Virus record (IMG/VR): IMGVR_UViG_3300010885_025649
Coordinates: 148,498-212,497 of that record
Reading direction: 5' to 3' (one strand)
Origin: a virus
Length of the DNA: 64,000 bases
The position numbers and the translations under genes were made by a program. Shown piece by piece: positions 2,860-49,944 of this stretch; the stretch's first letter is position 1; every line of letters begins with the position of its first letter. The notes beneath the pieces were generated by a model. The model saw only the letters and a program-made list of their open reading frames with translations, did not search any database and had not been told where the DNA came from.

Positions 2860-5667
2860 TTAGTCAATGCCTAGGTCAACCACACGGTTATATTCTGCTA
2901 CAACTTGTTTCTCCACCCCAAGGGTCAGAGCCACAAAGTAGAAGAAGCCTAGGTGTTTGATGCTACCTTCTCCTTGTTTAACCTTATCTGCTGTAAGAGC
3001 AGTAAAGTACAGGAGTTGGTCCTCAGAGAAGCCAAGAGTGTAAGCTTGAAGCTTATGCTCAATAGCAACCATGAGCGCACCATAGTTAGCCCCTTGAGAC
3101 ACTTGATCAAGGAGGATACGGTAGTCCACCTCAATAGCCTTATAGGCAACCCGAACATCTTCATACTCATCAGTGGGCAGAGCTTGACCCATGATCTCCC
3201 AGCGAGAGAGGTTAGAGGTCAAGGTATCCACATCAAGTACAGGATGCTCAGTCAAGTTGGTGAGGGTTGACCACACGTAGTCTGCTACGTGACCATAGCC
3301 TAGAGAACGAATCTCCGCCAAGTGGGGAGACAATTTCTCATAGGTGGTAGCTTCTGCCACAGCCAAAGCCCGTGCTTTGGTAGCAGTAAAGCCTTGATCA
3401 CGCAGCTCATTAACCCGATCTACCAGCCCATGATCTTTCCACACTTCCTTAAGGTGGGAAATAGCACTAAGGATTGGGCTGATATCTTTGTAGGGCATTT
3501 CACCCACGCCACCCAAAGCTTTCCACAACTTAGTAGCTTCAAGACGAAAGGCATGTAAGCTCAAAGAGCTATCAACCGTCTTCTTCATGCTGTTGAGGAC
3601 CGCTTGGATGTAACGAGCGAACTTGAACCTGATAGATGGCACCGCGCCTTCAGCACCGCTATCATCACCTTTGGTAAAGGCGGCAATCAGACCTGCACTA
3701 TGGTACAGGAACATCAAGGCCTTACCGAGGTTAACAGCGACGCCCACTTTAGCATCCCCTTCTTTGACCACCATAGCCATGACGTTCTTCCACGTAGAGT
3801 CTCCACTATTGGAGTGCTCAGTCTTCGTGGTAAGCGAACCATGGTTGCTGATGCGGGTATCATTTAGGGTAAGGAACTCAGGTAAGATCCCCCCTTCACA
3901 ATCCCCGTCAAAGTCACCTTGAATTTGCCCTTGAGTATAGGGAGTCATCAAGAACGCTGTTTGCTCGCCATGATCAATGACCTTTAAGGCCACCCAGCTA
4001 AAGTCAAACAACGCGGGTGCGCGATGGAAGATCATCACAGAACCCAGGGGGTATTTCCCTTTCAGTTCTGCTGGAACAATTACTTCATCATCTTTAATCC
4101 CGGTGTGGGGTAGGATGGGAAGATTGTATCCAGGCAAGCGATGAGTCAACATACGCTTCTTGAAGGCGTTAGTGAACTCGCTTGTGACATCTTCAAGGAT
4201 GGACTTGGCCAGCGGAAGACCAGCAGCTTGCATACGTAAGGCTAAACCTTGCGTACCAAACTGAGAACCGGCCTCATGCTCTTTGGCCAACGTGAGGAAC
4301 TTGCCCTCATCCCAGAGCTTAGCCATCGCTTGCACCTCTGCAAGAGAGGATACATGGTAGGCAGCTTTTAACTCAGGGTGGGCAAGAGTATCCATGAAGC
4401 GCAGATCTACCCCAAAGTTCAGAAGAGTCTGACGGGGATTAATCCACACGTTCATGATCAACAGTTCCTCAGGTTTGAGGGTGAGCTGATCCCCGTGCTT
4501 GGGCAAAGCGGCACCTTTTGCGCATTGGGTGAAAGCCTCCACAATAAAGCACAAAGAAGCCTCAGGATTGATCTCACGCGCCGCTGCTACCAAGCGTTTC
4601 TGCTTGTGATCAGTAGGCTTATTGATCATACCTTTGGCATTCAACATGCCGTGGTTAAGGAGAGCCGTACCTTGAGCAGGCGTGCAGGTATGCCCCACAG
4701 CCTCAAAGATTTGCTCATCATCAACCACTAACGCAAAGGGGCCATCCATGCTGACCTTGTATTTAATGCCAAGCTCTTTCGCGCTGACAAATACAATGTT
4801 AGCCAGGGAATGAAACAGGGGCGCACCAGGACGAAGGAGCGTTCTAGCCAGTTTATTAGCTAGGGCTGCATCCTCAGTCTGCTGAGGTTTATCTGTCCAC
4901 ACATAGGTCCCAGATGCACCTTTAACCCCTAACAGGTATGGGTGATTAGGGAACGCTGCATGAGCATGCTCAGCAACAGGAGCCATGAAATGCTCTTTGC
5001 CTACATAGGCTTGAGTCAGTTCCGCGCTTTCGATCTGGTACGTTGAAATAGGCTTGTTGGCCCGCACCGCTTCTGCCTCAGCCTTCTTAACGGCCTCATG
5101 ATCTTTGAGGACACTAGCTTTATAATCAAACATGTCAGCGCCCGTAGGACGACCAACTTGTTGAGTAATCAAGCCATTCTCAAACACCATAGGTTTGTAC
5201 CATCCGGCCGCAAATGGGTCAGAGGTTTTAACCTTAGGCAACGGTTTCTGTGGCTGATTGAACGCACCCTTGGTAAAGCTGATGCTATCTTTCCGCGTTA
5301 CTTCAGAAGCATGTGCTTCTTTTTCACACGGGAATTTCACATCAGCATAAGCCCGAGGGAAGGGGCGCTCTTGCTGAGTCCATGCGCGCACTACGCCGTT
5401 GTGGAGCTTCTTAACGCTAACAATCTTATCCAGATTACCATCAGCTTCGATCTTATACAAGATCTTAGCGACAGAGCTGAATGCAGACTGCGGCATTTTG
5501 AAGCCGTCAATAAAGAGGATAGGGTTACCCCGATCATCCCGGACGATTTCCACAAGGTGCGACGAGATAGCCTTCTTGTAGAAGAAGTCAATCACGTAGC
5601 TGCGTACAATCTCATCGGTCTCGGAGACCAATTGAATGCGCGCTTTGACGTTCATGGTTTTAGCCAT
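2860..5667 (-). CDS. Single-chain RNA polymerase-like protein (beta-prime DFDGD), 935 aa
   Basis: Residues 549-589 match the catalytic double-psi beta-barrel of multisubunit RNA polymerase beta-prime: a RAPAL segment (canonical NRAPTLHR) followed 36 residues later by GDFDGD (canonical NADFDGD). The three Asp of DFDGD, residues 585-589, would bind the catalytic magnesium. At 935 aa it is far shorter than bacterial beta-prime and lacks its other landmarks, so it most resembles compact single-chain polymerases of the YonO/crAss-like type. I did not find a convincing beta-type barrel by eye. The ATG follows AAGGAGAATACC. It is preceded on its strand, 38 bases away, by the Ala/Lys-rich gene, suggesting co-transcription. 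Likely role: transcription of a set of phage genes. Whether it is active alone is not known. Confidence 0.8.
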   Translation of the reverse strand: MAKTMNVKARIQLVSETDEIVRSYVIDFFYKKAISSHLVEIVRDDRGNPILFIDGFKMPQSAFSSVAKILYKIEADGNLDKIVSVKKLHNGVVRAWTQQERPFPRAYADVKFPCEKEAHASEVTRKDSISFTKGAFNQPQKPLPKVKTSDPFAAGWYKPMVFENGLITQQVGRPTGADMFDYKASVLKDHEAVKKAEAEAVRANKPISTYQIESAELTQAYVGKEHFMAPVAEHAHAAFPNHPYLLGVKGASGTYVWTDKPQQTEDAALANKLARTLLRPGAPLFHSLANIVFVSAKELGIKYKVSMDGPFALVVDDEQIFEAVGHTCTPAQGTALLNHGMLNAKGMINKPTDHKQKRLVAAAREINPEASLCFIVEAFTQCAKGAALPKHGDQLTLKPEELLIMNVWINPRQTLLNFGVDLRFMDTLAHPELKAAYHVSSLAEVQAMAKLWDEGKFLTLAKEHEAGSQFGTQGLALRMQAAGLPLAKSILEDVTSEFTNAFKKRMLTHRLPGYNLPILPHTGIKDDEVIVPAELKGKYPLGSVMIFHRAPALFDFSWVALKVIDHGEQTAFLMTPYTQGQIQGDFDGDCEGGILPEFLTLNDTRISNHGSLTTKTEHSNSGDSTWKNVMAMVVKEGDAKVGVAVNLGKALMFLYHSAGLIAAFTKGDDSGAEGAVPSIRFKFARYIQAVLNSMKKTVDSSLSLHAFRLEATKLWKALGGVGEMPYKDISPILSAISHLKEVWKDHGLVDRVNELRDQGFTATKARALAVAEATTYEKLSPHLAEIRSLGYGHVADYVWSTLTNLTEHPVLDVDTLTSNLSRWEIMGQALPTDEYEDVRVAYKAIEVDYRILLDQVSQGANYGALMVAIEHKLQAYTLGFSEDQLLYFTALTADKVKQGEGSIKHLGFFYFVALTLGVEKQVVAEYNRVVDLGID

Positions 5668-16831: not shown

Positions 16832-19800
16832 TCAAGTAGTCATTACAGACATATCATTCCCGGCCACATCTTGGAAGTGGTATTCATATTCCTGATTATT
16901 AATAGAACTAAGATAAGAAGTCTGATTTAATTCAGAATCATCATATTCATCAATAGAATCAGTAATAGAGACCTCCGCGATATTAAGAACATCAGACTCT
17001 CCAGCAGAGTTAATAAGCTCAAGCCGATATCTTTCAGCTTGGGCTTGTTCATATTCATTCTCAATAGCTTGAGCAGTCAAGGAAGTAACAGGGGATTCTT
17101 CTCTAGTAGCTGTCCGGACAGCCATAGCCGCAGATAACCCCGCGGCAAGCGCACCAAACGCGGCAGTAATAAGTCCGGATCCCATATTAGCAAGACCACG
17201 AGAAGCAAGTTCTCCAACATTAGTACCTTCTTTCCCTATAAATTTAGCAATAGGTGTTGTAATAACATCAGATAGGATAGTACTACCAACAATATTTCCT
17301 GCAAGACCGAGGGCATAGCCCCCTAAGATTTCATGTCGGGTATCACTATCAGACATATCCCTCATAGATTTAACTGCAGAGGTAATATCCGAGGCCATCA
17401 TAAAAGCGGATCTCATAGGAGCGAAAGTATTAGAAGACATAAGGCCATGACCAACAGATCTACCTAATTCAGCAGGATCAGTATTAGACTCTCTACCTAA
17501 AGCGCCACCAACAATAGAAGCACCGATAGTAGTAACTGCCAGCATACCATATCCAAGGAATCCCATAGGAGTATTATTAGACATAGCATTTTTAAAGTTT
17601 CTAATAAGGCCACTAGGAGGATTAATATGTGCGCGCAGTTCATTAGATTGCGCTAATCTAGTAACCATTTCATTAGCTTCATAAGGATTCATTTGTTTAA
17701 TATTATTATGTAAAGCATTAGAGAGATCCACAAGATTTTGATTATGTTCATTAGAATCTGGTGCTGAAGTAGACTCATAAGCAGCTTGTGCAATAAACAT
17801 CATAGTTTCCTTAGCAGTTTGTCCAGAGATACCTAATCTAGAAGCATCACTAATAGCACGATCAATAATAAGTTTTCTACCTACAATTCGTTTAGCCGTT
17901 TCATAATCAATTACTTTGCTTTGTGGTCCAGCACTAGTAGAATATTCATGAGTATAACTTGCAGTACTGGGGTCAGTACCAATCATACCCGTAGCTCTAA
18001 TATAAGAAACACCATTAACAATTTTACCAGAACCATTAACATAAATTTCCCCTGGGAAAGCTCTAGGACCATGGCTAGAATATTCAAGAATTTTATCAAC
18101 AGCATCACTAAAAGTCTTAGTCTTCATAGTCTCATCAATAGAGGCTCTAAAGCCAGACATAATTTCTTTAATATTTACATTATGTAATTTACCTCTACCA
18201 AGGATATCAGTAATAGTAGTACCAGCACCTTCACGGCTAGCAAAGTTTACTGATTCCGTAATAAGGGCTTGACCAATATGTGCAGCGGCCAAAGCCAAAT
18301 CACCAATATCAGCTTTACTTTCAGTAGTTAAAGCTTTCTGAACCCCATACATCTTTTGAATATTAAGTAATCCTTTATGCATAAGTTCATTAACTTTATT
18401 ACGGGCATCAGGAACAGAAAGGGGATCAAAGTCAATAGAACCCAATCCAGCTTCACCAAAAGGAGCAATAGTATTACTAGTATTAATACGACTAGCCATA
18501 AGTTCACGCTCATTTAAAGTAGAAGTAACAAACTTAAATAGATCATGATACTGGTGTGCTTGTAGAACTCTATTCATAGTATCTTGAAGATCCTTAGTAT
18601 AAGTAACAGTACCAGTAGTATCAGTAGCAAAAGCTCTAAGAGCAGCAATATCAGAATTATTCATTGCCGATCTACCCAGACTATCTTCTGCAAGCGTAAC
18701 CAACCGGGTAATCTTCTCACTACTCCCTCCAGTAACTAATTCTTCATCTAAGGTTTGGAATAAGTTAGCCGCAATTCTACGAATAGTTTGCAGTTTAGTA
18801 TGAGGAACTTCTTTAGCAAAGTCATGAGCAATTTCATCACTACTAAGAGATCCCACATGTGCTGCAAGAGCACCATAGCTTAAATTTGTAAGGATTTTAT
18901 TAGAGATAGATTCTGTAAGTGGAGTACCGGCATTACCTTGGACAGCAGATATATAATCTGCAACAGGATTAAGAAGCCCAGTAGCTTGAACAGCTTGATC
19001 AAGAGCTGCAGGTTGCAACTTAGTTTTAGTAGGCTTGTCTTCATAAGCATTCTCATACAATTGATTTAATGCAGTATACATTTCGCTAGGAGATACTCCG
19101 GTAGCAGCATTAGGTTTAATACCTTCTCTTCCCAGCATTTGCATTTGATAAGCAATACGAGATACAGACTCAATCGTTCTAGCTTTAGCTTTACCCATAC
19201 TATCCGCTTGTAAAAACTCATGACTAAATATATGAGAAGTAGTATCATAAAGCATACCCATATACTTAGTAGCCACTTGAGCAGTTTGTTGAGTAGCAGC
19301 CGCGGCTATATTTTGAGGCATAATAACAGGGAACATTAGTTTAAGGTAACTATTAACAGTTCCTTCATTAGCAGAATACGCAGCCAAATGTTGGCTTAAG
19401 GTTGGATTACCTTGTATAGTATTAAGTTTATCTTCAACAGAAGCAGATTTAAAAGCTGCGGCGCCTGCCGCTCCAAGTTCTGTTGAGACAACAGTTTCAA
19501 ACTCAGCACTATGAAAGTGATCAATAATTTTAGTAGTAGATTCATACTGTGCTCTACCAAACTTATTAAGAAGAATAGAGTCTTCAATTGTTTGGGCATT
19601 AAGTCCAGAAAGAACTCTTGATTGACGTTTGAAGGTAGCTAAGATATTAGTATCAGAGGTAACATTTGCTGTTACTTGTTCATGAAGACTAACAATACGT
19701 TTATCCTCCATAATTCTTTCAGCAGTTTCTTCAGCAGATGTTGGGCCAAGTACACCATAAAGTGCATCATAAGTACTATGAACCGCATCAACTCCTGAAG

Positions 19801-22800
19801 TACCATAAGGAATAACAGTAGTATTTACCGCTTGTCCAGCGCTACGTAATCTATTAGTAGAATCTGTTACAGCTTGACTAATATCTGTAGTAGTAGGTGT
19901 TCTACCCAGGCGTCTACCAATAATAGCATCACGTTCAGCCATTGCTTGTGCGCTACTAGTAAGAGCTTGAATGGTAGCCATATCCCCGTCATAATCCCCT
20001 TGCTGGTAGCCCATAGCAAACTTAGACACGAATATACTATCAGAATTATTCGCGAATCCTAGCTGCACTCCGCGTCTTCCAGCAGCACGATTATTAAGAG
20101 TTCTCAGAGTAATAACCTTCAAAGCGGCGGGGGCAACACCCTGAGGTGCTCCTGCTCTTAGGAACATACTAAAGAATCTATCACTATATGCATCCACCTT
20201 AAGCATACTAAAAGTGTCATTAATAACACCTAATAGATTACGATCATAGCCTTGTTTAGTAGTAGGATCTAAGATACCATAAGATTCCGCATGATGACGA
20301 AGACTATAGCCATTAAGTTTAATATCATCTAATATAGAACTGCCAGCAGTAGAACCAACCAAAGTACTCTTTAGAGTAGTTTCATCTAAAGTAAAGGGAT
20401 TTGTAACAAAAAACTTAGGGTTAGTATAAGTATGAGCTTTAGTTAAAATATCAAACCCACTATCTAAGATTTCTTGATCTGCTCCCCCAGAGTAATAAGA
20501 TTTATTAGATTTAGCTTTAGTAACATAATCATTCACCACACGTAATGCAGGATTAAGTCCCAGAGCAATTTCTCCCAACTTAACCTGATTAGATTCCATA
20601 GTAACACCAGAACCCCCGGCCGCTCTATGAATAGTGGTAGATAAGTATTGTTGATAAGTATCAGAATCAAGTAGGTTAGAAAGCGCTGTAATATAATTCC
20701 TCTTAGCCTCATTAAGAGATTTCAGGTAAGAATACTCTTCAATAGATAACCCGTAGTTAATAAGCTTTTTACCATTAGCATTACTAACATTCTGACTCAT
20801 ATATTGAATCTTAGACATATTAGTATCAGGATCTATTTCCTTTAAGGAAGTCGGCATTTGGTTAAAGACTTTAGTAATCTCTTGTTGACTTAGAACAAGT
20901 CTATTAATATATTGATCTGCATTATCTCTATTAGGATTTACATTAATAGATAATTGTTTAAGTTGTTCTGCTCCCAGTACAGGAATAAGTTCAAAGTCTA
21001 AGATAGTAGATTCAATATTTCTATGTACTCTAACTGCATTAGGAATAGCGGCCCCTAATTCAAATGTAGGAATCAGGACAGTACCCTTCTGCCTTGCGGC
21101 AAGTACTTCCTGTCTATATTTATACATATCAGTTTCATTAATTCCACCTGCTGTTCTATCTGCCGCAGAGGTATTAACTAAGGTTTGTATTTTAGTATTT
21201 AAATCTATTTTATTAGTACTAGATAATACATAACCAACAGCAGATTCTTTAGCTGATCTATACATAGAATCATACAAACTATGAATAGCCATAGCTTGAT
21301 TTCTTGTCTCTTCATTTACGACCAAGTGAGTAAGATCTAATCCACCATGCCATTGAGTATCAAAGGCAGGAGCAAATTCAGTTAAGCCTTGACTAAAAGC
21401 GCCGACAAGGAACATTCTCCCAATAGCTTGTTGAGTTAATTGTCTTAAGAGACCTATCTGTGATTGTTCACCGACAAGATCAGCAAAGGGAGTATTAGCA
21501 GTAAAGCCAAGGTGATCTGAATCATTAGCATAGTGTTCATATAAAGAAGCGTACTGACTAAACATATTAGCAGAAGTCTTGCGGCCAAATCTGGTATCAT
21601 CTGCTCTAAAGGTATCTTGAGATAAAGTAATCAGATTAAAGTTAGGAATAATCTGTTGTAATCTTTGTAGAGCTGTATTATCTTTTGGTTTAGCCCCGAG
21701 CATTTGTCCTAATACAGAAGAGACTAAACCATCTAGTTCCTCATTAGCTGGGATTCTACTAGCTCTAACTTGTGTTTTAACCTGAGTATATAAAGAAACA
21801 GCTTCAATCAAGTAATAAGTAAAGTCTAATTTATGAGCTTGTGCTTGTTTTGCAGGAAGGATAAATCCAAACTTCTGACTTTGAGGACTCATTACTTCTG
21901 TATAAGCCTCTTTAAACAACTGATTAATATATTGTGCAGGATCAGCATGTTGTATAAACTGATATAATTCATTATAGAAACCATGAGGAGACCCCGCAGT
22001 ATAATAACTTTGCATAGCTGCCTTGACTTCAGGAGGTGTTTTATTATAGAAATCAATTTGCTCCTTAGACATTTTATTAACTAAACTTTCAGTAAGCTTT
22101 TTAACATCCTCAATAACTTCTTGAGTAAGTGTCTGCAAATGTTTAGTAGAACTATGTGTTTGAAGATTTCTTAATTCCATAATCTTCATGAAATCATCTT
22201 CATTAGTAGCCATTAACGCGCCATATCTAAGTTTAAGGGCACCAGACATTTTAGGTTGTGTCCCATACTTAAACTGTTTAGGAGATACAAGTCTATTAAT
22301 AAGAGGGCTAGCTGTTGCCAAAGATCCCTTAAGTTTTGTTCTAAAGTCAGCACCATCATTAACAAAGAGTTTATCTTCATCAAAGACATCATTATTCATC
22401 AAGACATCTTGAACAGCATTACTAAGTCTAAGGAATCTTCTAGCCCCAATACCTCCATAAATACCATCTAAGGCATTTGCTTGCGTTTCGGCATAAGTTC
22501 TATTCATACCTGCGGTAGGACCTTTAGTATCAAGCAATCTAGCAGTAGGATTAGTATAAAGTTTAGCTTTAAAAGTGACAGCAGTATTACCAGATTGTTC
22601 TGGATCCACATTAATCATAACAAACTGCATTTTAGCGCCGGTTCTATTTTCAGCTAAGTTAGGAACTTCAACAGTAAAACCTGCCCCCATACCAACAGAT
22701 TTCTGTAGATTAGTAACAGCAACTTTAAATTCATCTTCAGTATAAAAGTTACCCGCAGTAACTAAATCTCTTAGTTTAGTAACTAAGTTATTATGTGTGT

Positions 22801-25800
22801 TTTGATCTGCGGTTGTTTTATAGGGTTGGAATCTGATAGTAAGATCTACTAACCGCACTTGTGTAGTATCTAAAAGATCATAACCTATTTCAGGATTAAG
22901 TCCGGCCTCACCAGTCGTAAGTGCAACCACTTGCAGTGGTTCCCGAGGTCTTTCTATAGCAGCAAGCTGAGCTAATCTTAAAGCATCACTAGCTTCACCA
23001 TAACCCATATGATAAACGGGTTCAGGCAAACCTGTTTCTCTAAACTGATTAGTAGCAGGATTAAACTGCCCATATTGATAAGAGAATCTAGGCGAAGCCA
23101 AGTTCTTAGTTCTTTGTCCTAATTGCCCAATAGATTTATGTGCTGTAAGAACGGCAACCATAGGAATTCTAAAAGGAGTTCCCGCGGCAGTATTACCGGT
23201 AACATCATCAAGTTTGTCATAAGCCTGCATTCTAAAAGCAGCTTCCATAGTAAGAATAGAAGCAGCAGGATCTCCAATCTGAGTAATAGCTCCAAGCTTC
23301 TTAGCTTTATATCCTTTAGTTAATTGGCTTTGCATAGACAGAGAATACATAGTCTCTGAAGTACCATCAAGGTTATAAACAACTCCTTCAACTCCTGGAG
23401 AATCCGGACTAACTGGAGCCACTTTAATAACTTGTTCATTAGTAGTAAATAGATCATCATACATAAAAGGTTGATACTTATTACTATCCCCAAGTTGAGA
23501 ATACCCCATAGTTTTAGTAGGGATAGGAACAGAAGCTTTAGTAAGCATTTTAAAGATAATACGCATCTCTTCGGTATTAAATCTACTCAGATCTTCGTTA
23601 GTTCCGGTAGATTTAATAATTCTATATTTCATCAAGCGCATTTTATCAACAGTATCAGTAAGAGTAAGATCAGGATTATCCAATGCTCTATCATAAGCGC
23701 GTAATCTTTGTACCAATTGATATTCCGCGATCTGTCCTAAAGCAATAATAGCTTGAGCGGAATTAAGTTTAACAGTTTGATTAGCCCCAAAAGTTCTACC
23801 AGCAATAACACGTTCTTTATCTCCGGTATTAATAAGCATACTTGAGATTAAGGTGTCATATTTCTGCATATAGATATCACCTTTTTCAGTGAACCCAATA
23901 TCATAGTTAAATACATCTTCCCCTGCATATTTAAGTCTAATTCTAAGACCTGATTGCGGTATTCCTGGTAAATGTTCTTGCATAAAGAGTTTAGAATTTA
24001 ATCCACCCTTTTGATTAAATTCCATAGTTTGTCTAATAAGCTCACTAGCTTTATTCCAAGAAGCTTTAGTACCAAATGCTTGTCTAGCCGCATTATTAAA
24101 CTCCGCAGTACTACTATAAATAGGACTACGACCACTAAGGGTATCTTCTCTAAAGAGTCCAAGTTCTTGTAGTCCTGATTTAAGTTGCCCTAATAATTGT
24201 GGATCATGTGAGTCTTTATTACCAATAAACAAACCAGTCTCAGTATTACTGCGCAAAGCTCTAGCACTAATATTAGCCGAGGTCATCAATCCATATTGGG
24301 CATCACCATACTGATTAGTAACCAACATACTAGTTTGGTGTTGAAATCTTTGTGTAGACGAAAATCTAATCTTCCCGGCGGCAACAAGTCTATCAAATTC
24401 CCCGGGGTTAGTAGTATCAAAATATCGTCTAGCTTGTTCTAATCTAACATCCCCCCCAAGTTCTAATGGAGATCCCAGCATTAAAGTAAATCTATCTGTA
24501 TTTAAAGCCTTAAGTATCTTAGTACTTATACCCGAAATAGTATTAGAAGATAGATCTAACTGATTAGTTAGTAAGTATCCTCTAGAAGTGCCCTCATCTA
24601 AGACAGTTTGTAATAATTTATCCAGAGCAAGTTCATTAAGGTTACTACCCGTAGTACCAATAGGCCCTCTAGTATCTATAAGAGCAGTAGTTTGATATTT
24701 AGTAACTGCATCTATAGCATCAGTAACCAATAATTGTTGATACTGGGTACCAAGGCTAGCTCCAGTAAACACAGATTCCACCCCAGCGCTATATTGTCTA
24801 ATCTGTTTACCAACCAAAGTACTATCATTAAGCAGATTAGAGCCATGTAAACCAACAAACATTTGGTTAAACTGTGATGGATTAGTATAAGGTTCAGACA
24901 TTCTACCAGTAGCACTAGGAGTTAAGTTCTGTTTACCCAACCCAGCAAATGCTATAAGTTGCCCATCCCCATACACAGATATATTCTTTTGGTGTTCAAT
25001 TCCGCCACTAGAACCACTACTAAGATCTTCATGGAAAACCCCAGAGGCACGAATCATATCATCAATAGCATTTACATTTCCACTAGTAAACGCATCCAGA
25101 TAAGTTCTACCCCCAACAATAGATCTTAAAGCATCACTATTAAGAACAATAGAGCCACCCCTACCTTGTTGTAAGAATGCTAGATTAATATCTAGTTTAC
25201 CCCCATATTCAGCATCAGCCAATTGTAATAAGTTCTTAGCCATAGCAAAGACTTCCAAGTTACCTGAGGTAATACTACTAGAAGGTGCTTGCACAGTTAA
25301 GTTAATAGTTAATTTATTAAGGCTATTCTTAACAGTACTTCTAGGATTAAGTAGATAATCTGTAGCTGCGATCAGCATTTGATTAATCTGCCCTTCTTGT
25401 TGGAAGAAGGAGCTAAAGATAGTCGCTTCACTAAAAGCAACAGGACCAATACCCGCAGCAGCAAACACATTAGCAAAGCTAGCTAAAGTAGGAGCACTAA
25501 GAATACCAGTAGGAGTTTCAGTAACATTTAGTAGAGATCTAAACCCCAAAGGATCCTCATTAAACTTAATACCTTTACGAACACTAGCAATACCCACAGT
25601 ATCAAGCAAGAAGTGATTAGCCATAACAACCTGCATAGCACTAGAAGCAATGGCACTCATATTCAAATAGAAGTCATCATTAGCAAGCCTATCTGAGTCA
25701 AGAGTATTAATAGCAACTCCAGACTTAGTATAGAAATTTCTAAGTTCAGAGCTATAACTTTCTACAGGTTTAAAGAATGGTTGTAATGCACGTTTAAGTC

Positions 25801-26398
25801 TTCTATTAGGTTCTTGAGTAGGGTCAAAGTAATTAAATGCATTAGTGCCGGCCTCCATAAACAAGCTCAAACCTTCTCCTAAAGTTTGTCTATAAGATTG
25901 AACTTCAGCAGTTTCTTGGAATTGATAAGCATCCGCAGCTTCAATATTAGCTTCCAAATCTAAGAATGCCGTTTCAGAGGCGGAGCTACCAGCTCTATCA
26001 ACATGATATTGTCTAGCAGCTTGACTAATAGCAGTAGCTAAATCCTTATTACTACTCATTGCAGTAAGTCTGAACTTTCTAATAGTACTACCATCAGGAG
26101 CTAATTCGCTTTGCACAACTAAGCGATTATCTACAAAGTAATTATCTTGCCCAAATGGAGACGCACCTCTACGATAATAATAGGGGTTACTATCCCCGGA
26201 CATATCAGTACCAGGAGACTGGAACATCTTATCTCTAAAGACGCGTCTATTAGCATTTCTAGTATCATAGACCCCAGCAATACCTTTATCAATAAGCGCA
26301 GCAACATTATCATCAGAGGTAATGGCATAACCGCCCTGATAATACTGTCCTGTTATTTTATTCAAGAAACTATTATTGCGCATATAGTTAACTAACAA
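16832..26398 (-). CDS. Giant PLD-like/RNA polymerase fusion protein, 3188 aa, probable virion RNA polymerase
   Basis: About residues 455-725 read as a phospholipase-D-type double motif: H469xK471 followed by AGLGKQNL, then H687QT followed by TSANISARALRSNTETG with N709 and E720. The second motif has Thr where Lys is usual. At 2081-2139 a RAGAPQGVAPAALKV segment and GDYDGD (Asp 2135, 2137, 2139) match the beta-prime catalytic barrel. The last 350 residues include Gly/Ala-rich hydrophobic stretches that could insert in membranes. Size and a site beside the structural genes recall N4-type virion polymerases and crAss-like gp66. It may be packaged and injected. No separate tape measure is seen in the window, so a tape-measure function is possible. 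Confidence 0.8.
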   Translation of the reverse strand: MLVNYMRNNSFLNKITGQYYQGGYAITSDDNVAALIDKGIAGVYDTRNANRRVFRDKMFQSPGTDMSGDSNPYYYRRGASPFGQDNYFVDNRLVVQSELAPDGSTIRKFRLTAMSSNKDLATAISQAARQYHVDRAGSSASETAFLDLEANIEAADAYQFQETAEVQSYRQTLGEGLSLFMEAGTNAFNYFDPTQEPNRRLKRALQPFFKPVESYSSELRNFYTKSGVAINTLDSDRLANDDFYLNMSAIASSAMQVVMANHFLLDTVGIASVRKGIKFNEDPLGFRSLLNVTETPTGILSAPTLASFANVFAAAGIGPVAFSEATIFSSFFQQEGQINQMLIAATDYLLNPRSTVKNSLNKLTINLTVQAPSSSITSGNLEVFAMAKNLLQLADAEYGGKLDINLAFLQQGRGGSIVLNSDALRSIVGGRTYLDAFTSGNVNAIDDMIRASGVFHEDLSSGSSGGIEHQKNISVYGDGQLIAFAGLGKQNLTPSATGRMSEPYTNPSQFNQMFVGLHGSNLLNDSTLVGKQIRQYSAGVESVFTGASLGTQYQQLLVTDAIDAVTKYQTTALIDTRGPIGTTGSNLNELALDKLLQTVLDEGTSRGYLLTNQLDLSSNTISGISTKILKALNTDRFTLMLGSPLELGGDVRLEQARRYFDTTNPGEFDRLVAAGKIRFSSTQRFQHQTSMLVTNQYGDAQYGLMTSANISARALRSNTETGLFIGNKDSHDPQLLGQLKSGLQELGLFREDTLSGRSPIYSSTAEFNNAARQAFGTKASWNKASELIRQTMEFNQKGGLNSKLFMQEHLPGIPQSGLRIRLKYAGEDVFNYDIGFTEKGDIYMQKYDTLISSMLINTGDKERVIAGRTFGANQTVKLNSAQAIIALGQIAEYQLVQRLRAYDRALDNPDLTLTDTVDKMRLMKYRIIKSTGTNEDLSRFNTEEMRIIFKMLTKASVPIPTKTMGYSQLGDSNKYQPFMYDDLFTTNEQVIKVAPVSPDSPGVEGVVYNLDGTSETMYSLSMQSQLTKGYKAKKLGAITQIGDPAASILTMEAAFRMQAYDKLDDVTGNTAAGTPFRIPMVAVLTAHKSIGQLGQRTKNLASPRFSYQYGQFNPATNQFRETGLPEPVYHMGYGEASDALRLAQLAAIERPREPLQVVALTTGEAGLNPEIGYDLLDTTQVRLVDLTIRFQPYKTTADQNTHNNLVTKLRDLVTAGNFYTEDEFKVAVTNLQKSVGMGAGFTVEVPNLAENRTGAKMQFVMINVDPEQSGNTAVTFKAKLYTNPTARLLDTKGPTAGMNRTYAETQANALDGIYGGIGARRFLRLSNAVQDVLMNNDVFDEDKLFVNDGADFRTKLKGSLATASPLINRLVSPKQFKYGTQPKMSGALKLRYGALMATNEDDFMKIMELRNLQTHSSTKHLQTLTQEVIEDVKKLTESLVNKMSKEQIDFYNKTPPEVKAAMQSYYTAGSPHGFYNELYQFIQHADPAQYINQLFKEAYTEVMSPQSQKFGFILPAKQAQAHKLDFTYYLIEAVSLYTQVKTQVRASRIPANEELDGLVSSVLGQMLGAKPKDNTALQRLQQIIPNFNLITLSQDTFRADDTRFGRKTSANMFSQYASLYEHYANDSDHLGFTANTPFADLVGEQSQIGLLRQLTQQAIGRMFLVGAFSQGLTEFAPAFDTQWHGGLDLTHLVVNEETRNQAMAIHSLYDSMYRSAKESAVGYVLSSTNKIDLNTKIQTLVNTSAADRTAGGINETDMYKYRQEVLAARQKGTVLIPTFELGAAIPNAVRVHRNIESTILDFELIPVLGAEQLKQLSINVNPNRDNADQYINRLVLSQQEITKVFNQMPTSLKEIDPDTNMSKIQYMSQNVSNANGKKLINYGLSIEEYSYLKSLNEAKRNYITALSNLLDSDTYQQYLSTTIHRAAGGSGVTMESNQVKLGEIALGLNPALRVVNDYVTKAKSNKSYYSGGADQEILDSGFDILTKAHTYTNPKFFVTNPFTLDETTLKSTLVGSTAGSSILDDIKLNGYSLRHHAESYGILDPTTKQGYDRNLLGVINDTFSMLKVDAYSDRFFSMFLRAGAPQGVAPAALKVITLRTLNNRAAGRRGVQLGFANNSDSIFVSKFAMGYQQGDYDGDMATIQALTSSAQAMAERDAIIGRRLGRTPTTTDISQAVTDSTNRLRSAGQAVNTTVIPYGTSGVDAVHSTYDALYGVLGPTSAEETAERIMEDKRIVSLHEQVTANVTSDTNILATFKRQSRVLSGLNAQTIEDSILLNKFGRAQYESTTKIIDHFHSAEFETVVSTELGAAGAAAFKSASVEDKLNTIQGNPTLSQHLAAYSANEGTVNSYLKLMFPVIMPQNIAAAATQQTAQVATKYMGMLYDTTSHIFSHEFLQADSMGKAKARTIESVSRIAYQMQMLGREGIKPNAATGVSPSEMYTALNQLYENAYEDKPTKTKLQPAALDQAVQATGLLNPVADYISAVQGNAGTPLTESISNKILTNLSYGALAAHVGSLSSDEIAHDFAKEVPHTKLQTIRRIAANLFQTLDEELVTGGSSEKITRLVTLAEDSLGRSAMNNSDIAALRAFATDTTGTVTYTKDLQDTMNRVLQAHQYHDLFKFVTSTLNERELMASRINTSNTIAPFGEAGLGSIDFDPLSVPDARNKVNELMHKGLLNIQKMYGVQKALTTESKADIGDLALAAAHIGQALITESVNFASREGAGTTITDILGRGKLHNVNIKEIMSGFRASIDETMKTKTFSDAVDKILEYSSHGPRAFPGEIYVNGSGKIVNGVSYIRATGMIGTDPSTASYTHEYSTSAGPQSKVIDYETAKRIVGRKLIIDRAISDASRLGISGQTAKETMMFIAQAAYESTSAPDSNEHNQNLVDLSNALHNNIKQMNPYEANEMVTRLAQSNELRAHINPPSGLIRNFKNAMSNNTPMGFLGYGMLAVTTIGASIVGGALGRESNTDPAELGRSVGHGLMSSNTFAPMRSAFMMASDITSAVKSMRDMSDSDTRHEILGGYALGLAGNIVGSTILSDVITTPIAKFIGKEGTNVGELASRGLANMGSGLITAAFGALAAGLSAAMAVRTATREESPVTSLTAQAIENEYEQAQAERYRLELINSAGESDVLNIAEVSITDSIDEYDDSELNQTSYLSSINNQEYEYHFQDVAGNDMSVMTT

Positions 26399-26499: not shown

Positions 26500-26919
26500 A
26501 TGAGAAAGGATAAGTTTTACAAGATCACGCTACCAACCGGGTTAGTAATTGAATTCAGAGAACCATTATTCAAAGAAGTAGAAACATTAAAGCATCAGTG
26601 GAAGAGCAAATTAGCAGCTAAGCAAATTGTATTAACCGATTTAGTTCCGGCCGCATGCATTGAAACTATTAATGGACAAGCTCCAGAAGAGCCAGATCCT
26701 ATTGCATTACTAAGCACAATGGTATACAGAGATGTATGTGCTTACACTAACTTCTTCAATGGAATGTGTATGCCTCCTGACTTGGCCAAACAGATTGAGG
26801 AAGCAGATTACAATAGTTTTTTCGAGACGGGGGAGATCAACTTCCAGACCAAGAACAACTTCGAGACTTCCGATGGCAAAGAGACCGTAGTCGTCAAGAA
26901 AACCGCCCAGAAACCTTAA
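26500..26919 (+). CDS. Tail assembly chaperone-like protein, short form, 139 aa
   Basis: The N-terminus (KFYKITLPTGLVIEFREP) has the pattern of phage tail assembly chaperones of the Mu gp41-like type: a strand, a turn, then FREP. The rest is helical. The frame contains a TTTTTTC slippery heptamer at codons 107-108 and overlaps a -1 frame that opens immediately before it. That arrangement is typical of the G/GT chaperone pair. It precedes the portal gene, an unusual position. Confidence 0.65.
   Translation: MRKDKFYKITLPTGLVIEFREPLFKEVETLKHQWKSKLAAKQIVLTDLVPAACIETINGQAPEEPDPIALLSTMVYRDVCAYTNFFNGMCMPPDLAKQIEEADYNSFFETGEINFQTKNNFETSDGKETVVVKKTAQKP
26817..26823 (+). other. -1 ribosomal frameshift site TTTTTTC
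   Basis: Zero frame reads AGT TTT TTC, a canonical X XXY YYZ site. The -1 frame has a TAG at 26814-26816, just before the heptamer, and is then open to the TAA at 27414-27416. The overlap (26817-26919) is noticeably less AT-biased than its surroundings, as dual coding would cause. Confidence 0.75.
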
Positions 26920-39350: not shown

Positions 39351-42300
39351 ATGGCAACCGACCAAAGAACTCCACGGGTATTAATTTCAGAACCAACTAA
39401 TACAATAGTTGCTCCACGTACGGTAAATTTAAACCGCATTGGAGTTTATGGCAGGTTTAGAAGAGGCCCTGCAAATACCCACACAACATTATCATCTAGA
39501 GATACCTTTTCTCGTAGATACGGAATTGATACAAACCCAGGATCCCTATGTGTACAGACCGCATTTGATCAAGGTGCTGGTGACTTTGCTATTTATAGAA
39601 TTGTCCCAGGAGCTAGTGCAGCTACCGCCACTATTACCCTAACAGGAATTGTTGGTACTGCAGGAACTCAAGATGTTGCCTTATGGCATTATAAAAGTGG
39701 AGATACTAGTGGTACTGGTGTTGTAGTTGCTTATGCAGTAACCTCAATTGGGGAAACCGCTGCAACTATTATGAACAGATTAGTTAGTAATATTAACGCC
39801 AACCCTGTAACCGTTGGAAGATTAAACGCCGTGTATAATAGCACAGCTACTCCAAGTATTACTTTAACTACAACTACTATTGGTGCCGCTGCAAACACTG
39901 AGCAGTATTATATAGCAGTAGGAAGTAGTGGATTAAGTGGAGCGACACCAACATTTGCTAGTGGAGGCTATACCTTTAGTGGTGGAGCTAATGCCGCTAC
40001 TGCAGGATCTATTACTTTATATGATGCTACTGGCTTGTTACCTTTAGTAACTATCACAGATGTATCTGTAGGATACTCTAACTTAGTACTTACTGTTACC
40101 GCTGGTATTGGTAGTAGTAAATGGAACCTAACAGTACAAGATCAAAGTGCTAGTAATAACACAGTAAGTACTGTAGATGCTTTTGGTAACCCTATTGTTA
40201 GTAACGTTACTCAAAGTGGAAGACAAGAAGTATATACCGGATTAGATTTCCTTAACTTAGATATTCTAGGATTTATGCAGCAATTTGATAAGTCTGAATA
40301 TATCAAAGCACAATATGTTGGTAGAGGTGGACCTAATGCTGCTGGCCCTAATGGAATTAGTGATATTAACTTACGTCCTACAAGAGCAGGAAAGCAATAT
40401 GCAGTAAGTCTTACAAGAGGTTATAGACCTAATACTCAAGATGACACCGGGTATACCTTTGTTAAATCTTTAATAAGTGTAAGCCAAACAGTAAGAAATG
40501 CATTTAATCCTACTACCACAACTACTACAACTTTTACTCAAGGTATTGATTATAAGTTGACTGGTAATACCGTTGATTGGTTGTATGATTCACTAGATCT
40601 AGCACAACCAGGAACAGTTACAGTTACTTCTGCTAACTACTATCAAGTAATTGGTACTAATACAACCTTCTTAACTACGTTTAGTGTTGGTAACTTAATT
40701 AAATTTAATAGTGTCTCTTACACAATCGCTAGTATTACTAATGATTTATTATTAACTCTAACAACTCCTGCTGCCGCCACAAGTGGAGCTTCTTATGTTA
40801 GAGATGATAACAGCACAGTTAACGAACCTATTAACGCGACCTCTATGATTATGCCTGCAGTAGGCAGCACAGTAGCCGCAGCTAACTCAGGAGCAGGTAC
40901 TGGCTCTTTAACTAACGCCACTACTTATTACTACGTAGTATGTGCAGGAGATGCTGGTGGATATACTACTTTAGGAACTGTGGTTAACGTTGCTGCTACA
41001 AGTACAGGAACTATTAACTTAACCTGGACTGCAGTAAGTAATGCTACTAAATACAGAGTATTCAGAAAGACTACTACTATTTCTGCTGGTGATACTTCAG
41101 TAAGTTACTATGATATTCTTAGTGGAACTACACTTAACTACTTAGATACTAACGCTGCCCCTACAGGAACTGCTACTGTTCCTTCTTCTAACACAACTAC
41201 CGGAGTATTAGCAGCAGTTACAGGACTAAACGCAGCTACTACATACTTCTATACTGTTTGTGCTTCTCCTGATAACGTAAACTTCACTACTATTAGTGGT
41301 AACGTACCAAGTGCAGTTGTAAGTAGCACAGGAATTGTAAACGTGACTTGGCCTATTTCTGCTGGTGCTAACTACTACAGAGTATTCAGAAAGCCAACAA
41401 CTATTATTAGTGCAGGTGATACTACTATTGGTTATTACACAATTACTGGTGGAAACATTACTACACTAGCTGATACTTTAGGAAGTCTTAATGCTACTAC
41501 TGCCACAGTTCCTAGTACTAATGGTACCGGGTTAGCTACAGTACTTAGCACAACTCCTACTACTGTTACAGGAACTGGTACAGCCTTTATTAACCAGTTT
41601 GCAGTTGGGGATACAGTTACTATTCGTACTAGAGCTTATAGCGGGGCTGCAACGCCTTTAGTATTAACCGCTACTACAGATGGAACTACTACTACAGTAA
41701 CAGCACAACAACCTTATGCTTTTATTAATGCTAGTAACGTACCAGTAATTCAATTAGGTGATATTATCAGAATTGGTTCTGAGAATCGTAAGATTACAGC
41801 TATTACAAGTGCAACCGTAGTTGTAGTAGATTATGCATTCGCAGCTAACACTACCCAACCTTTATACATTGTACAAGATAGAGTGATTACTGCTATTGGA
41901 AGTAACACTTCCTTAACTGTAAGTTCTGCCTTTACTTACTTTGGAGCTAACTTAGCTTATGAAATCCTACGTAGAGAATTCTATACAGCTAACATTGTTT
42001 CTTGTAAAGACACAACAGTTGTAACAACTCCTTTATATGGTGGAAGTGATGGTCCTTTACCAAGTGCTCAAGATTATATCAATGCTATTAACACCAGTAA
42101 CACTTATAACTTGAACTATATTGTAGTTGGTGCTGAAGCAGGAATCGTAGATAACTTTAACGTACATGCTGCACAAATTACTGCTGTAGATAACTCTGTA
42201 GAACTAACCGGATTACGTATTGCAATCTTACAAGCTCCTAAATCTTGGACTACTACAGATACAATTGTAAGTAACTCCTTAACTTATGCACAACCAAGTG

Positions 42301-42923
42301 TATATAAAGGTGGAGCAGTAATGGTTTATAGTTGGCACACATATACAGCACAGACTTCTGTAGCTCCTCTTAGTGTTCCTGGTAATGGTTTCTATGTAGG
42401 GCACTTAGCAAGTACACCTTTCTATGTAAGTCCTGCTGCTCGTAGATCCAGTCCTACTATCAAGAATATTGTAGATACCACTCTAACAACCTCCCAAGAT
42501 TACTACAATGCTATTGCTGATGCAGGCTTCGAAGCCTTAATCTTAGACCCCGCTATTGGTCAATATCACTGTTTAACTGGGAAGACTACTTCTACTGATT
42601 CTAACTGGGTATATATCTCTGTAAGACGTGTATATAACGTATTACGTGAGAACATCTACTTTGCGTTAAGTTGGGTTAAATCTGAACCAGCAAGTACACA
42701 AAACAGCTACTACAATAGAATTAATGACTCTGTAGATAATATCTTACAAAATGCTAAGAATCAAGGGATTATTGAGGCATTTGTACCAACAACTTCTACT
42801 GCTAGTAGTTCTGACAGAGCGGCCGGGATTGTTAAAGTCTATACATCTATTACCCCTGTATATCCTGCAGACTTTATTAATCTTGAGATCAATCGTAGTA
42901 TCCCATTAGCAATCAATATTTAA
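39351..42923 (+). CDS. Tail sheath protein with FN3-like insertions, 1190 aa
   Basis: The N-terminus (TPRVLISEPTNTIVAPRTVN, IGVYGRFRRGP) and C-terminus (YISVRRVYNVLRENIYFALSW, YYNRINDSVDNIL, PADFINLEINRSIPLAI) are those of contractile sheath proteins. It is two to three times the usual length. The insert (about residues 430-790) holds two FN3-like repeats, each with ATTYxYxVCA and a later YYRVFRK or KYRVFRK motif, flanked by two copies of the small GTxTxF...VGD beta-module. The insertions probably project from the sheath. Contracts around the tube during injection. Confidence 0.85.
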   Translation: MATDQRTPRVLISEPTNTIVAPRTVNLNRIGVYGRFRRGPANTHTTLSSRDTFSRRYGIDTNPGSLCVQTAFDQGAGDFAIYRIVPGASAATATITLTGIVGTAGTQDVALWHYKSGDTSGTGVVVAYAVTSIGETAATIMNRLVSNINANPVTVGRLNAVYNSTATPSITLTTTTIGAAANTEQYYIAVGSSGLSGATPTFASGGYTFSGGANAATAGSITLYDATGLLPLVTITDVSVGYSNLVLTVTAGIGSSKWNLTVQDQSASNNTVSTVDAFGNPIVSNVTQSGRQEVYTGLDFLNLDILGFMQQFDKSEYIKAQYVGRGGPNAAGPNGISDINLRPTRAGKQYAVSLTRGYRPNTQDDTGYTFVKSLISVSQTVRNAFNPTTTTTTTFTQGIDYKLTGNTVDWLYDSLDLAQPGTVTVTSANYYQVIGTNTTFLTTFSVGNLIKFNSVSYTIASITNDLLLTLTTPAAATSGASYVRDDNSTVNEPINATSMIMPAVGSTVAAANSGAGTGSLTNATTYYYVVCAGDAGGYTTLGTVVNVAATSTGTINLTWTAVSNATKYRVFRKTTTISAGDTSVSYYDILSGTTLNYLDTNAAPTGTATVPSSNTTTGVLAAVTGLNAATTYFYTVCASPDNVNFTTISGNVPSAVVSSTGIVNVTWPISAGANYYRVFRKPTTIISAGDTTIGYYTITGGNITTLADTLGSLNATTATVPSTNGTGLATVLSTTPTTVTGTGTAFINQFAVGDTVTIRTRAYSGAATPLVLTATTDGTTTTVTAQQPYAFINASNVPVIQLGDIIRIGSENRKITAITSATVVVVDYAFAANTTQPLYIVQDRVITAIGSNTSLTVSSAFTYFGANLAYEILRREFYTANIVSCKDTTVVTTPLYGGSDGPLPSAQDYINAINTSNTYNLNYIVVGAEAGIVDNFNVHAAQITAVDNSVELTGLRIAILQAPKSWTTTDTIVSNSLTYAQPSVYKGGAVMVYSWHTYTAQTSVAPLSVPGNGFYVGHLASTPFYVSPAARRSSPTIKNIVDTTLTTSQDYYNAIADAGFEALILDPAIGQYHCLTGKTTSTDSNWVYISVRRVYNVLRENIYFALSWVKSEPASTQNSYYNRINDSVDNILQNAKNQGIIEAFVPTTSTASSSDRAAGIVKVYTSITPVYPADFINLEINRSIPLAINI

Positions 42924-44989: not shown

Positions 44990-46326
44990 CTTATTCTGGA
45001 CTCAATCCTACTTCATCTGCTCGTGTGGCGGGGTCACTATTGACACCCTCAAAAAGTACATCTAGAACCAAGGGAAAGAAGCATGAGAATCACCTACCAG
45101 TACCGGATGCGCCCACCCCCTAACCAAGAAGCCACAATGCTTGATTGGTTAGAACTGTTACGGAAGCAGTACAACTACCACTTGGGTGAGCGTCTGGACT
45201 GGGAACGGCTCAATAAATGCCCTGTAGACCGTTGCTCTATTATCAGTTGTCCAATTGCCCCACCCAAAGACAGACCTAGCTATTACAGCCAACAAAATGA
45301 CCTACTCAATACCAAGAAGCTGTTTCCTGAGTACAAAGCTATTCACTCTCAGGTACTTCAAGATTGCGTAAAACGTATTGACCGCACTTGGCAGCGATTC
45401 ACTCAAGGGGACAGTAACGGTAAGCGGTCAGGCCGTCCTCGATTCAAAAGCAAAGGCCGCTATCACTCATTCACTTACACCCAGATGAAACCAGGATGCT
45501 TGGATGGGAAACTGCTTACCCTGCCCAAGCTGGGAGTCATCAAGCTTATTTTGCATCGTCCCATCCCAAACGGCTTTGTTATCAAAACCGCTACCGTCAC
45601 GCATCGGGCGGACGGGTGGTATGTGTCCTTATCCTTGCTCTGTGATGATGTGCCCCTTTTGGCTCCAGACCCAAACCCAGAAAATACGATAGGGATTGAC
45701 TTAGGGCTAAAGGCGTTCCTGGTCACACCTGAAGGTGAAGAAGTTGCTATTCCACAACATTACCGCAAAGCTGAGAAGAAGCTAAGGCGCATACAACGTC
45801 AGCTATCCAAGAAGAAAAAGGGCAGCAACAACCGCAATAAAGCCCTACGCCGGGTTGCCAAATTGCAGCAACGCACGGCTAACCAACGTAAAGATTTTCA
45901 CCACAAGACAGCTTCTAATCTTGTGGTAAAGCATCAGGTCATTGCTCATGAAGACCTGAACATCAAAGGCTTGGCAAAGTCCAGACTAGCCAAGTCAGTC
46001 AATGATGCCGGATGGGGTCAATTCCTGTCAATTCTCGCTGTCAAAGCTGCAAATGCTGGACGGATGACGATAGCAGTGAATCCAAACGGCACAAGTCAAG
46101 AATGTTCTAGCTGTGGAACGCACGTCCCCAAGACCTTAGCCGACAGGTGGCATAACTGCCCTAGCTGTGCCCTGAGTCTTGACCGTGACCACAATGCAGC
46201 CCTGAACATCAAACAAAAGGCGGTGGGTCATCCCGTCTCTGCTAGGGGAGGCTTCCAGGATGCTGGGCCAATGAACCTAGAAGCCCGCTCTATACCGCTT
46301 TGCGGTTAGAGTCGGGAGTATGTCAC
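44990..46326 (+). mobile_element. IS200/IS605-family TnpB-only element
   Basis: A visibly more GC-rich block in an AT-rich region, carrying only tnpB. The right end after the stop reads AGTCGGGAGTATGTCAC, ending at 46326, and is preceded by a CTCTA-ACCGC/GCGGT-TAGAG hairpin (46288-46311), like right ends of cyanobacterial IS605-type elements. The left end is not sharply visible (somewhere in 44984-45060). No tnpA is present. No structural gene is broken by the insertion. Confidence 0.7.
45083..46309 (+). CDS. tnpB: TnpB RNA-guided nuclease, 408 aa
   Basis: N-terminal helix-turn-helix-like part, then a RuvC fold with GIDLGLKAF (Asp), HEDLNIKGL (Glu) and LDRDHNAALNI (Asp), with the zinc ribbon CSSCG/CPSC between the last two. 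All catalytic residues are present, so it is probably active: a guide-RNA-directed DNA nuclease that helps IS605-type elements persist. The guide RNA would come from the 3' end of the gene and the bases after 46326. Codon use and GC differ from its neighbours. Confidence 0.9.
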   Translation: MRITYQYRMRPPPNQEATMLDWLELLRKQYNYHLGERLDWERLNKCPVDRCSIISCPIAPPKDRPSYYSQQNDLLNTKKLFPEYKAIHSQVLQDCVKRIDRTWQRFTQGDSNGKRSGRPRFKSKGRYHSFTYTQMKPGCLDGKLLTLPKLGVIKLILHRPIPNGFVIKTATVTHRADGWYVSLSLLCDDVPLLAPDPNPENTIGIDLGLKAFLVTPEGEEVAIPQHYRKAEKKLRRIQRQLSKKKKGSNNRNKALRRVAKLQQRTANQRKDFHHKTASNLVVKHQVIAHEDLNIKGLAKSRLAKSVNDAGWGQFLSILAVKAANAGRMTIAVNPNGTSQECSSCGTHVPKTLADRWHNCPSCALSLDRDHNAALNIKQKAVGHPVSARGGFQDAGPMNLEARSIPLCG

Positions 46327-49400: not shown

Positions 49401-49944
49401 CGCAGGAATTATTATAGATGAAAGAGCCGGGATACCTAACTATGCCATCCCACCCAGAAATGTATTTATCTTTGATGAAACTGCTGACGAGAACATGACA
49501 AACGAGAACTTTGCAGTAGTTATGGCTATGGCTAGACTATGGGGTAGAGATACTAAAGTAGCTTTAATAACTATTCCTGGAGATCCCGGAGTTATTATTG
49601 GAGAAACAGTTAAGTTATACAAGACTATATTAAATACTAATAATATCTTACAGTTATCTGCAGAAGCTAATAAAAGTGTTAATGATCAGAATGCTAGATT
49701 ACATGCCAGCGGATGTAACTTAGGACAAGGTGTTACTAATGCCGATAGTAAAAATCAACTTACTACAGTAGTCTATCAAGCTGATGTGCAAGGACTATTC
49801 GTTAACTTAAGTGATAGTCATAAAGATCCTTATACCACAACCGAAGAAGGTTATACGTATAGAATAGAAGCAGTGTCTCACATTTATAGACCTAATACAG
49901 ATGTAGGATTTGAAACCCAGCTATCTTTAATTGAGGTGATTTAA
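46414..49944 (+). CDS. Baseplate hub-like protein, 1176 aa
   Basis: An early segment (VRIFGGYSKDKYVESTDW, then APIFWGVIDTISVSIQSTNIFISLNLRDNIRYFVD) has the hub-domain pattern of T4 gp27/late control gpD: a beta-domain with phiGxI, then a second. The C-terminal 150 residues (KVALITIPGDPGVIIGETVKLY, EEGYTYRIEAVSHIYRP) resemble the closing hub beta-barrel. The middle is a long Gln/Asn/Thr-rich insertion with a coiled-coil stretch. Unusually large for a hub. Overlaps the next ATG by one base. Confidence 0.65.
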   Translation: MKIYNDRARHNGTKDTPVLYRGMNPGITCSQGGNDALTPKFVLVGVDRSSDNLLSSAYPQIQALCSKVFNGPVDKYGQYLIAGQMGTFRFHSAVVRMTRFFAVSSATITLSIDADQYNKSCGGLNTLQYDDLKEATKIDLSNVKLKTDSSASIKTQTATSTTTLPPFLYTLYPDLEVRIFGGYSKDKYVESTDWMEDNWQSTDSELAPIFWGVIDTISVSIQSTNIFISLNLRDNIRYFVDTNLVQEILPSKNNTAGNSLTRFEVLSSVILNTFYRSSDARLISSSIDTNNPDAIINPIGFNLTDPETRRKAVGATAKDGGTLSGNAPVFTKEQTPERIPQYTFTALPRPVYLQPAVAFVSGSGGNLIQCATLPTDPEVKKALTDNNTKTRGELLTLAISNSTQADTTNIKKLAAFKAAFLSNIYLAKNSVLQTPSLDLLSTGNATGSYSQESQISAAKGITNNNGDTFQDVFTKANSDTTRYSTETLQTIFTNGITAFDSLKDKTYTSALNKKPPSNFGSGTLTKADLIAYILDTKSVDLQQNTQSLSDTVQTYTYLNEGSAPPPNIDTVAQTMGNYIVTKGFAQLSMVDPDDVKNYFQYQALGDPYRLDKIGLPPFAFIYTQRSYISGDSATPNLFKVTNKAPIDVLKHLGTTEAVPTEFFFDHRTGHYFYIPKASAFDFNISNDVKQYLNNSSQLSTLGGLITSTNETLASTTADSTTQDDEVTAAQATITEANKQGFAITGKDGKTIYKIRPITTNDLTYFSQVATPVDRLPNKDPSTIYYTNGGGFLEPNRNIQRIKSDPTGNNYDAFILDPAAKVTDTLYEQTTDGSKKPLGSVLSVLRTSPFTHFTLTPTDKNNPIVQQLKDATDIVNKAATNKTQANQTISKLNKQVSDYKAQQDTITKQQEALLAANPDLAKTLTAPADAIPRHYYAVLEDTQIKDLRDPSGKSSVIIPKSVSNCKVEWSSFGMKTDIHMTNQKGINNGTLQGVGLHAGIIIDERAGIPNYAIPPRNVFIFDETADENMTNENFAVVMAMARLWGRDTKVALITIPGDPGVIIGETVKLYKTILNTNNILQLSAEANKSVNDQNARLHASGCNLGQGVTNADSKNQLTTVVYQADVQGLFVNLSDSHKDPYTTTEEGYTYRIEAVSHIYRPNTDVGFETQLSLIEVI

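Follow-up and report, generated by a model that had tools for sequence, protein, structure and literature searches.

Giant portal-adjacent proteins of Ma-LMM01-type myoviruses join a PLD fold to a likely RNA polymerase

Giant phage polymerases and the window locus

Giant fused virion RNA polymerases (RNAPs) have precedent (PMC10770324). The virion RNAP gp66 of phi14:2, a crAss-like phage of Bacteroidota, is a single chain of 2180 aa encoded in a structural-gene neighborhood, with an R-x-P-x-x-G motif ahead of DxDxD (RIPNQGQS...GSDFDID) and no known PLD domain. In Thermus phage P23-45, a two-barrel RNAP lies within the giant virion protein gp96 (FRNPVMGHG...GVDFDGD), where its partners are a tape measure and a metallopeptidase, and a smaller protein of the same phage, gp64 (616 aa; NRRPDLPTG...GADYDGD), is a non-virion RNAP. 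YonO of SPbeta, an unfused single-chain two-barrel phage RNAP of 839 aa with a DNDGD motif, functions in late-gene transcription after induction.

The window that we analyzed, a stretch of 64,000 nucleotides, is the final 64 kb of a virus record of 212,497 bp. It encodes a protein that shares with gp66 the giant single chain, the motif pair, and the structural-gene neighborhood, although the window family has DxDGD where gp66 has DFDID. The motif order is also that of gp96 and gp64, but the partner domain here is of PLD type, and neither gp66 nor gp96 has significant sequence similarity to the window protein. The gene and its neighbors are as follows.

16832-26398, minus strand: giant gene, open frame of 3188 aa, with a TTG start or an ATG at residue 6 (nt 26383)
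26500-26919, plus strand: small conserved gene between the giant gene and the portal gene; homologs adjoin the giant gene in L051, L052, and L120
27417-28919, plus strand: portal protein, adjacent marker gene (phrog_113, 5.6e-21); homologs adjoin the giant gene in relatives

The uninterrupted frame described in a sequence-only reading of this DNA was confirmed over all 3188 codons and lies on the minus strand, a point which that reading had left out. Each motif that it had named was found where it had been placed (H469-Q-K471; H687-Q-T689, N709, and E720; RAGAP at 2081-2085; GDYDGD at 2134-2139). A second contig, IMGVR_UViG_3300009154_002711, encodes a protein 100% identical to the window protein.

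The capsid and sheath genes of the window phage have distant relatives in the Microcystis phages Ma-LMM01 and MaMV and in Microcoleus phage My-WqHQDG. By these sequence relationships the source virus is a myovirus distantly related to Ma-LMM01, and, since the genes are related to those of Microcystis and Microcoleus phages, its host is probably a freshwater cyanobacterium. The tail sheath (39351-42923, plus strand, 1190 aa) seems to carry a large insertion, as the Ma-LMM01 sheath (∼775 aa) matches its two ends only, and a transposase gene (45083-46309, plus strand; phrog_506, 9.5e-108) lies amid the tail genes. A tape-measure role for the giant gene was also considered; nothing pointed to it, and a separate large tail gene is present at 46414-49944.

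A portal-adjacent family of giant genes

Ma-LMM01 is a lab-grown model phage of bloom-forming Microcystis. Its gp080 (UniProt A0A7J4), a protein of 3562 aa encoded on the minus strand at the same genome place, contains HPKFFVSDRAALIGTMN and NLGDFDGD and resembles the window protein in its portal-adjacent position, double HKD, K..Q..QR.KN motif, R..P.G-DFDGD pair, and giant size. Unlike the window protein, gp080 has both HKD sites intact, and direct BLAST similarity between the two is nil, their link running through intermediates. Indeed, with the window protein as query, BLAST and tblastn against phages, PHROG, and Pfam gave no direct significant match beyond the identical copy, so that intermediates were needed to reach the family. 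We gathered the family with gp080 and its relatives as queries and then with the window-phage portal protein, and we dropped the many matches to the DxDGD pattern that belonged to short, unrelated open reading frames or to phage beta'-like proteins of another kind.

Twenty distinct giant genes were collected, of about 2850 to 5000 codons, one of them split in two. In the window, and in every relative for which both genes were read, the giant gene has the portal gene as its neighbor, and the portal-protein search by itself recovered additional giant genes. The K..Q..QR.KN motif together with R..P.G followed by D[FYW]DGD was common to all 20, and an N-terminal double-HKD PLD domain was found in 19 of them. 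L120, L147, and L148 are interlinked by full-length BLAST matches (36%, 26%, and 25% identity), and this group is tied to the Ma-LMM01 clade by weaker yet significant matches (L147-L042, E 3e-4; L148-L151, E 2e-6). An HMM built from the three matched the window protein at residues 2076-2148 (RAGAP..GDYDGD) with an E value of 2.5e-5 in a search of 56 sequences, the best of 50 shuffles giving 0.31. In the 20-sequence alignment, the window protein is collinear with the family through further conserved blocks, with its K-motif in the expected order. These sequence comparisons place the window gene in a conserved family whose giant multidomain products are encoded by Ma-LMM01-type myoviruses. GTDB genomes, scanned with the family, yielded no relative.

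Some relatives depart from the common layout. The split giant gene (L156:2178-6590, minus strand, and L179), in a contig of 135,938 bp, encodes 1471 aa with the PLD and K-motif and 2231 aa with DxDGD. The giant gene of L170/L183 has the K-motif and DFDGD and lacks PLD motifs, which indicates that the PLD module is separable. Beside the portal gene of L142 (2917-9333, minus strand) lies a gene for 2139 aa that has the family's C-terminal domain in common and lacks DxDGD, K-motif, and PLD, and L144-L146, whose portal is 36% identical, have no giant open frame nearby.

The PLD-type region

The N-terminal part of the window protein contains the following features.

24179-25501, minus strand: PLD-type double-HKD region, about residues 300 to 740 (Pfam PLDc_2; alignment to family members with a predicted PLD fold)
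24926-24994, minus strand: HKD motif 1, H469-Q-K471 ... G-K-Q-N491-L-T (from sequence; family consensus H.K....[DEN]....GS.NLT)
24239-24340, minus strand: HKD motif 2, IRFSS-TQRFQH687-Q-T689 ... S-A-N709 ... E720, with Thr for Lys (Pfam match here)

For the family, the PLD-type domain proposed by the sequence-only reading is supported. Pfam PLDc_2 was matched in 8 of 10 members (best E value, 4.7e-8), and an alignment of 17 relatives showed no change at the His or the Lys of either HKD motif. An AlphaFold model of a Ma-LMM01-type ortholog (residues 175-1374) had a pLDDT mostly of 75 to 94 over the PLD region, and a Foldseek search with it returned solved double-HKD PLDs, with Streptomyces PLD at an E value of 7.6e-6 (probability, 1.0) and further matches to human PLD1, PLD4, and vaccinia F13. 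This model predicts that the PLD fold is present in the family, which shares with that superfamily both the fold and the two HKD motifs.

The window protein itself is more divergent. Its PLDc_2 match is weak (E 0.022 for the whole protein and 0.003 for the region), and PLD HMMs of clades A and B did not detect its PLD region above shuffles, so that the assignment here depends on Pfam, motif, and position. HKD motif 2 aligns to IRLADTFGRFQHAKG of L147 and relatives, with T689 at the Lys position, in agreement with the earlier remark that this Lys is missing and that activity is uncertain. HKD motif 1, which that remark had passed over, is degenerate too: Tyr476 occupies the usual D/E/N position and G-K-Q-N replaces G-S-x-N. 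Because of both changes, catalysis by the window PLD is doubtful. The window domain thus differs from known double-HKD PLDs by its absent second Lys and by its fusion to a putative RNAP. That it attacks host DNA, as was also suggested, is speculation.

The candidate polymerase region and its role

Four further features lie downstream of the PLD-type region in the protein.

23102-23137, minus strand: K1088-SIGQLGQR-T-K1098-N motif, found in 20/20 family members (L148 variant, QRFGN)
19982-20158, minus strand: candidate catalytic DPBB-A segment, R2081-AGAP-QG ... GD2135-Y-D-G-D2139 (alignment and clade HMM)
19109-19156, minus strand: block QMLGREGIKPN (family QQLLRDSIKPK), about residues 2415 to 2430, with R invariant and D and K nearly so
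17099-17551, minus strand: Gly/Ala-rich hydrophobic C-terminal region, about residues 2950 to 3100, with a weak hydropathy peak

In the 20-sequence alignment, the invariants of the C-region (R, D, D, G, D, G, R) are all kept in the window protein. RAGAPQG corresponds to the R-x-P motif upstream of the Asp triad, whose R is invariant and whose P and G are near invariant in the family. A hydrophobic strand follows DxDGD in the family, as it does in the validated RNAPs gp96 and gp64, while the spacing from R to D is ∼54 to 70 residues versus ∼38 to 45 in known RNAPs. R..P.G with DxDGD would be the signature of a catalytic double-psi barrel, in which the three Asp would hold Mg2+. The K1088/K1098 motif might represent the lysine site of DPBB-B, but this is a guess; a second barrel was not recognized in the family, and AlphaFold confidence was low around the K-motif.

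We assessed these motifs against 5000 shuffles of the window protein. K.{2,4}Q.{2,3}QR.KN and R.{1,3}P.G.{45,60}D[FYW]DGD never occurred, R.QH.[KT]..[ST].N..E occurred in 2, and D[FYW]DGD alone occurred in 20. The loose pattern H.[KT]...[ST].N would mean little by itself, as 2408 of the shuffles contained it; it is their conservation in relatives that makes the window motifs meaningful.

The RNAP active site seen in the sequence-only reading is thus supported by invariant motifs, their order, and collinearity, but not by profiles or by a confident structure. Profile searches of Pfam, PHROG, and PDB sequences gave no significant match to any RNAP, neither Pfam nor PHROG matched the window protein to an RNAP of any sort, the T7-like single-subunit kind of N4 included, and the PDB sequences matched by the C-region profile, coiled coils and similar, were set aside. 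At DYDGD, the window protein weakly matched phrog_2986, annotated as "RNA polymerase beta subunit" (E 0.046). HHalign comparison with gp66 and YonO, the check put forward by the earlier reading, gave no significant similarity, and the same was true of gp96 and gp64. The AlphaFold model of the DxDGD region of a Ma-LMM01-type ortholog was of low confidence (pLDDT, 59; pTM, 0.36), and Foldseek returned noise matches only. Many RNAP families have no significant similarity outside a small region around DxDxD (PMC10770324), and the missing profile match is for that reason not decisive.

This mixed evidence bears on a different reading, in which the giant chain is a PLD-bearing virion or pilot protein of large size and its DxDGD is a structural metal-binding loop and no polymerase site. 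The failure to find an RNAP profile or fold match would fit it, as would the mostly helical prediction downstream of DxDGD in the low-confidence AlphaFold model, the related C-terminal domain without DxDGD at the same place in L142, and the large size with its hydrophobic C terminus, where the window protein has one weak hydropathy peak (residues 3074 to 3094) and several relatives have comparable ones. Calcium loops of the FG-GAP type have a G and a later D after DGD, whereas a hydrophobic stretch stands there in the family; moreover, DxDGD occurs once, without repeats, after an invariant R..P.G in 20/20 members, and proven RNAPs carry the same signature. We therefore regard a metal-binding loop as somewhat unlikely and the giant protein as likely to be an RNAP, judging from its sequence. 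The conserved fusion of PLD and RNAP-type regions is real at the sequence level, with the RNAP part likely.

As a whole, the locus is best explained, in our view with moderate confidence, by a single-chain phage RNAP, perhaps carried in the virion, with a PLD-fold module that would act or bind during entry. From the N terminus, the chain would comprise a PLD fold bearing the HKD motif pair, then a long stretch with the K-motif, a DPBB-like segment, and a hydrophobic C terminus. By analogy with the virion RNAPs of crAss-like phages and P23-45, the protein may be a late product that is packaged close to the portal and leaves the virion with the DNA to start transcription of phage genes. At entry, a phosphodiester in lipid or nucleic acid would be the substrate or the ligand of the PLD-fold module; the module of the window phage, its catalytic residues lost, may only bind. 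The packaging step, which draws on this analogy and, indirectly, on the place of the gene next to the portal gene, is held with less confidence than the polymerase identity. A literature search for Ma-LMM01 virion proteomics found none. Only tentatively do we propose the fuller version, in which Ma-LMM01-type cyanophages begin transcription with virion-carried single-chain RNAPs of a new family that bear a PLD-fold domain for entry.

A single-chain two-barrel phage RNAP within a giant protein is a known kind. What had been called a new architecture is a fusion conserved in ∼19 phages, whose PLD part is already recognized in the UniProt name of the Ma-LMM01 protein ("PLD phosphodiesterase domain-containing") and whose RNAP half is apparently unreported. 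The gp080 family falls in phrog_31006, of unknown function, and gp080 has no RNAP annotation. In the literature searched, mostly nonsubscription papers, the PLD partner and the occurrence in Ma-LMM01-type phages appear, provisionally, to be unreported. Ma-LMM01 promoters have been described as host SigA-like, a point against the RNAP reading, with all genes inferred to be read by a SigA-type host RNAP and the origin of the three expression classes left open (PMC5780444), and its relative MaMV-DH01 was stated to be without an RNA polymerase (PMC9927357). If true, the RNAP reading would depart from the view of these phages as wholly dependent on the host RNAP, and the fusion would give phage polymerases a new partner domain. 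Since the conserved DxDGD giant protein occurs in these phages, the question of Ma-LMM01 transcription is directly testable in culture.

The window phage encodes two further DxDGD proteins.

2860-5667, minus strand: second DxDGD protein, 935 aa, HRAPALF..ALKVI..QGDFDGD (sequence; phmmer)
L206:3347-6877, minus strand (record ∼137346-140876): third DxDGD protein, ∼1170 aa, WRYP...ADFDGD (sequence)

The 935-aa protein, with HRAPALFDFSWVALKVI...QGDFDGD, had no PHROG or Pfam match; phmmer aligned the same segment weakly to the largest subunit of plant Pol V (E 0.04). From its motifs it is likely a second, separate single-chain RNAP. With these proteins the phage resembles P23-45, which pairs a giant fused virion RNAP with a small non-virion one. 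Known phages split the work among RNAPs, and the giant gene is divergent from the portal operon in the window and in several relatives; both points suit a variant of our preferred explanation, not exclusive of it, in which the giant protein is a non-virion RNAP made after infection for middle or late genes. We consider this variant unlikely, as the protein is far larger than YonO (839 aa) or gp64 (616 aa) and the other two DxDGD proteins already have the usual non-virion size.

The extra DxDGD proteins, like the lost Lys of the second HKD and the degenerate first HKD, could also mean that the window gene is decaying, with its PLD broken, its polymerase perhaps nonfunctional, and its job passed to the 935-aa and 1170-aa proteins. 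The frame is, however, wholly open, every RNAP-side invariant is retained, and a second contig holds an identical copy, all of which make decay quite improbable. Among the relatives, G013 also encodes a DxDGD protein of 1242 aa, and in Ma-LMM01 gp080 alone was seen.
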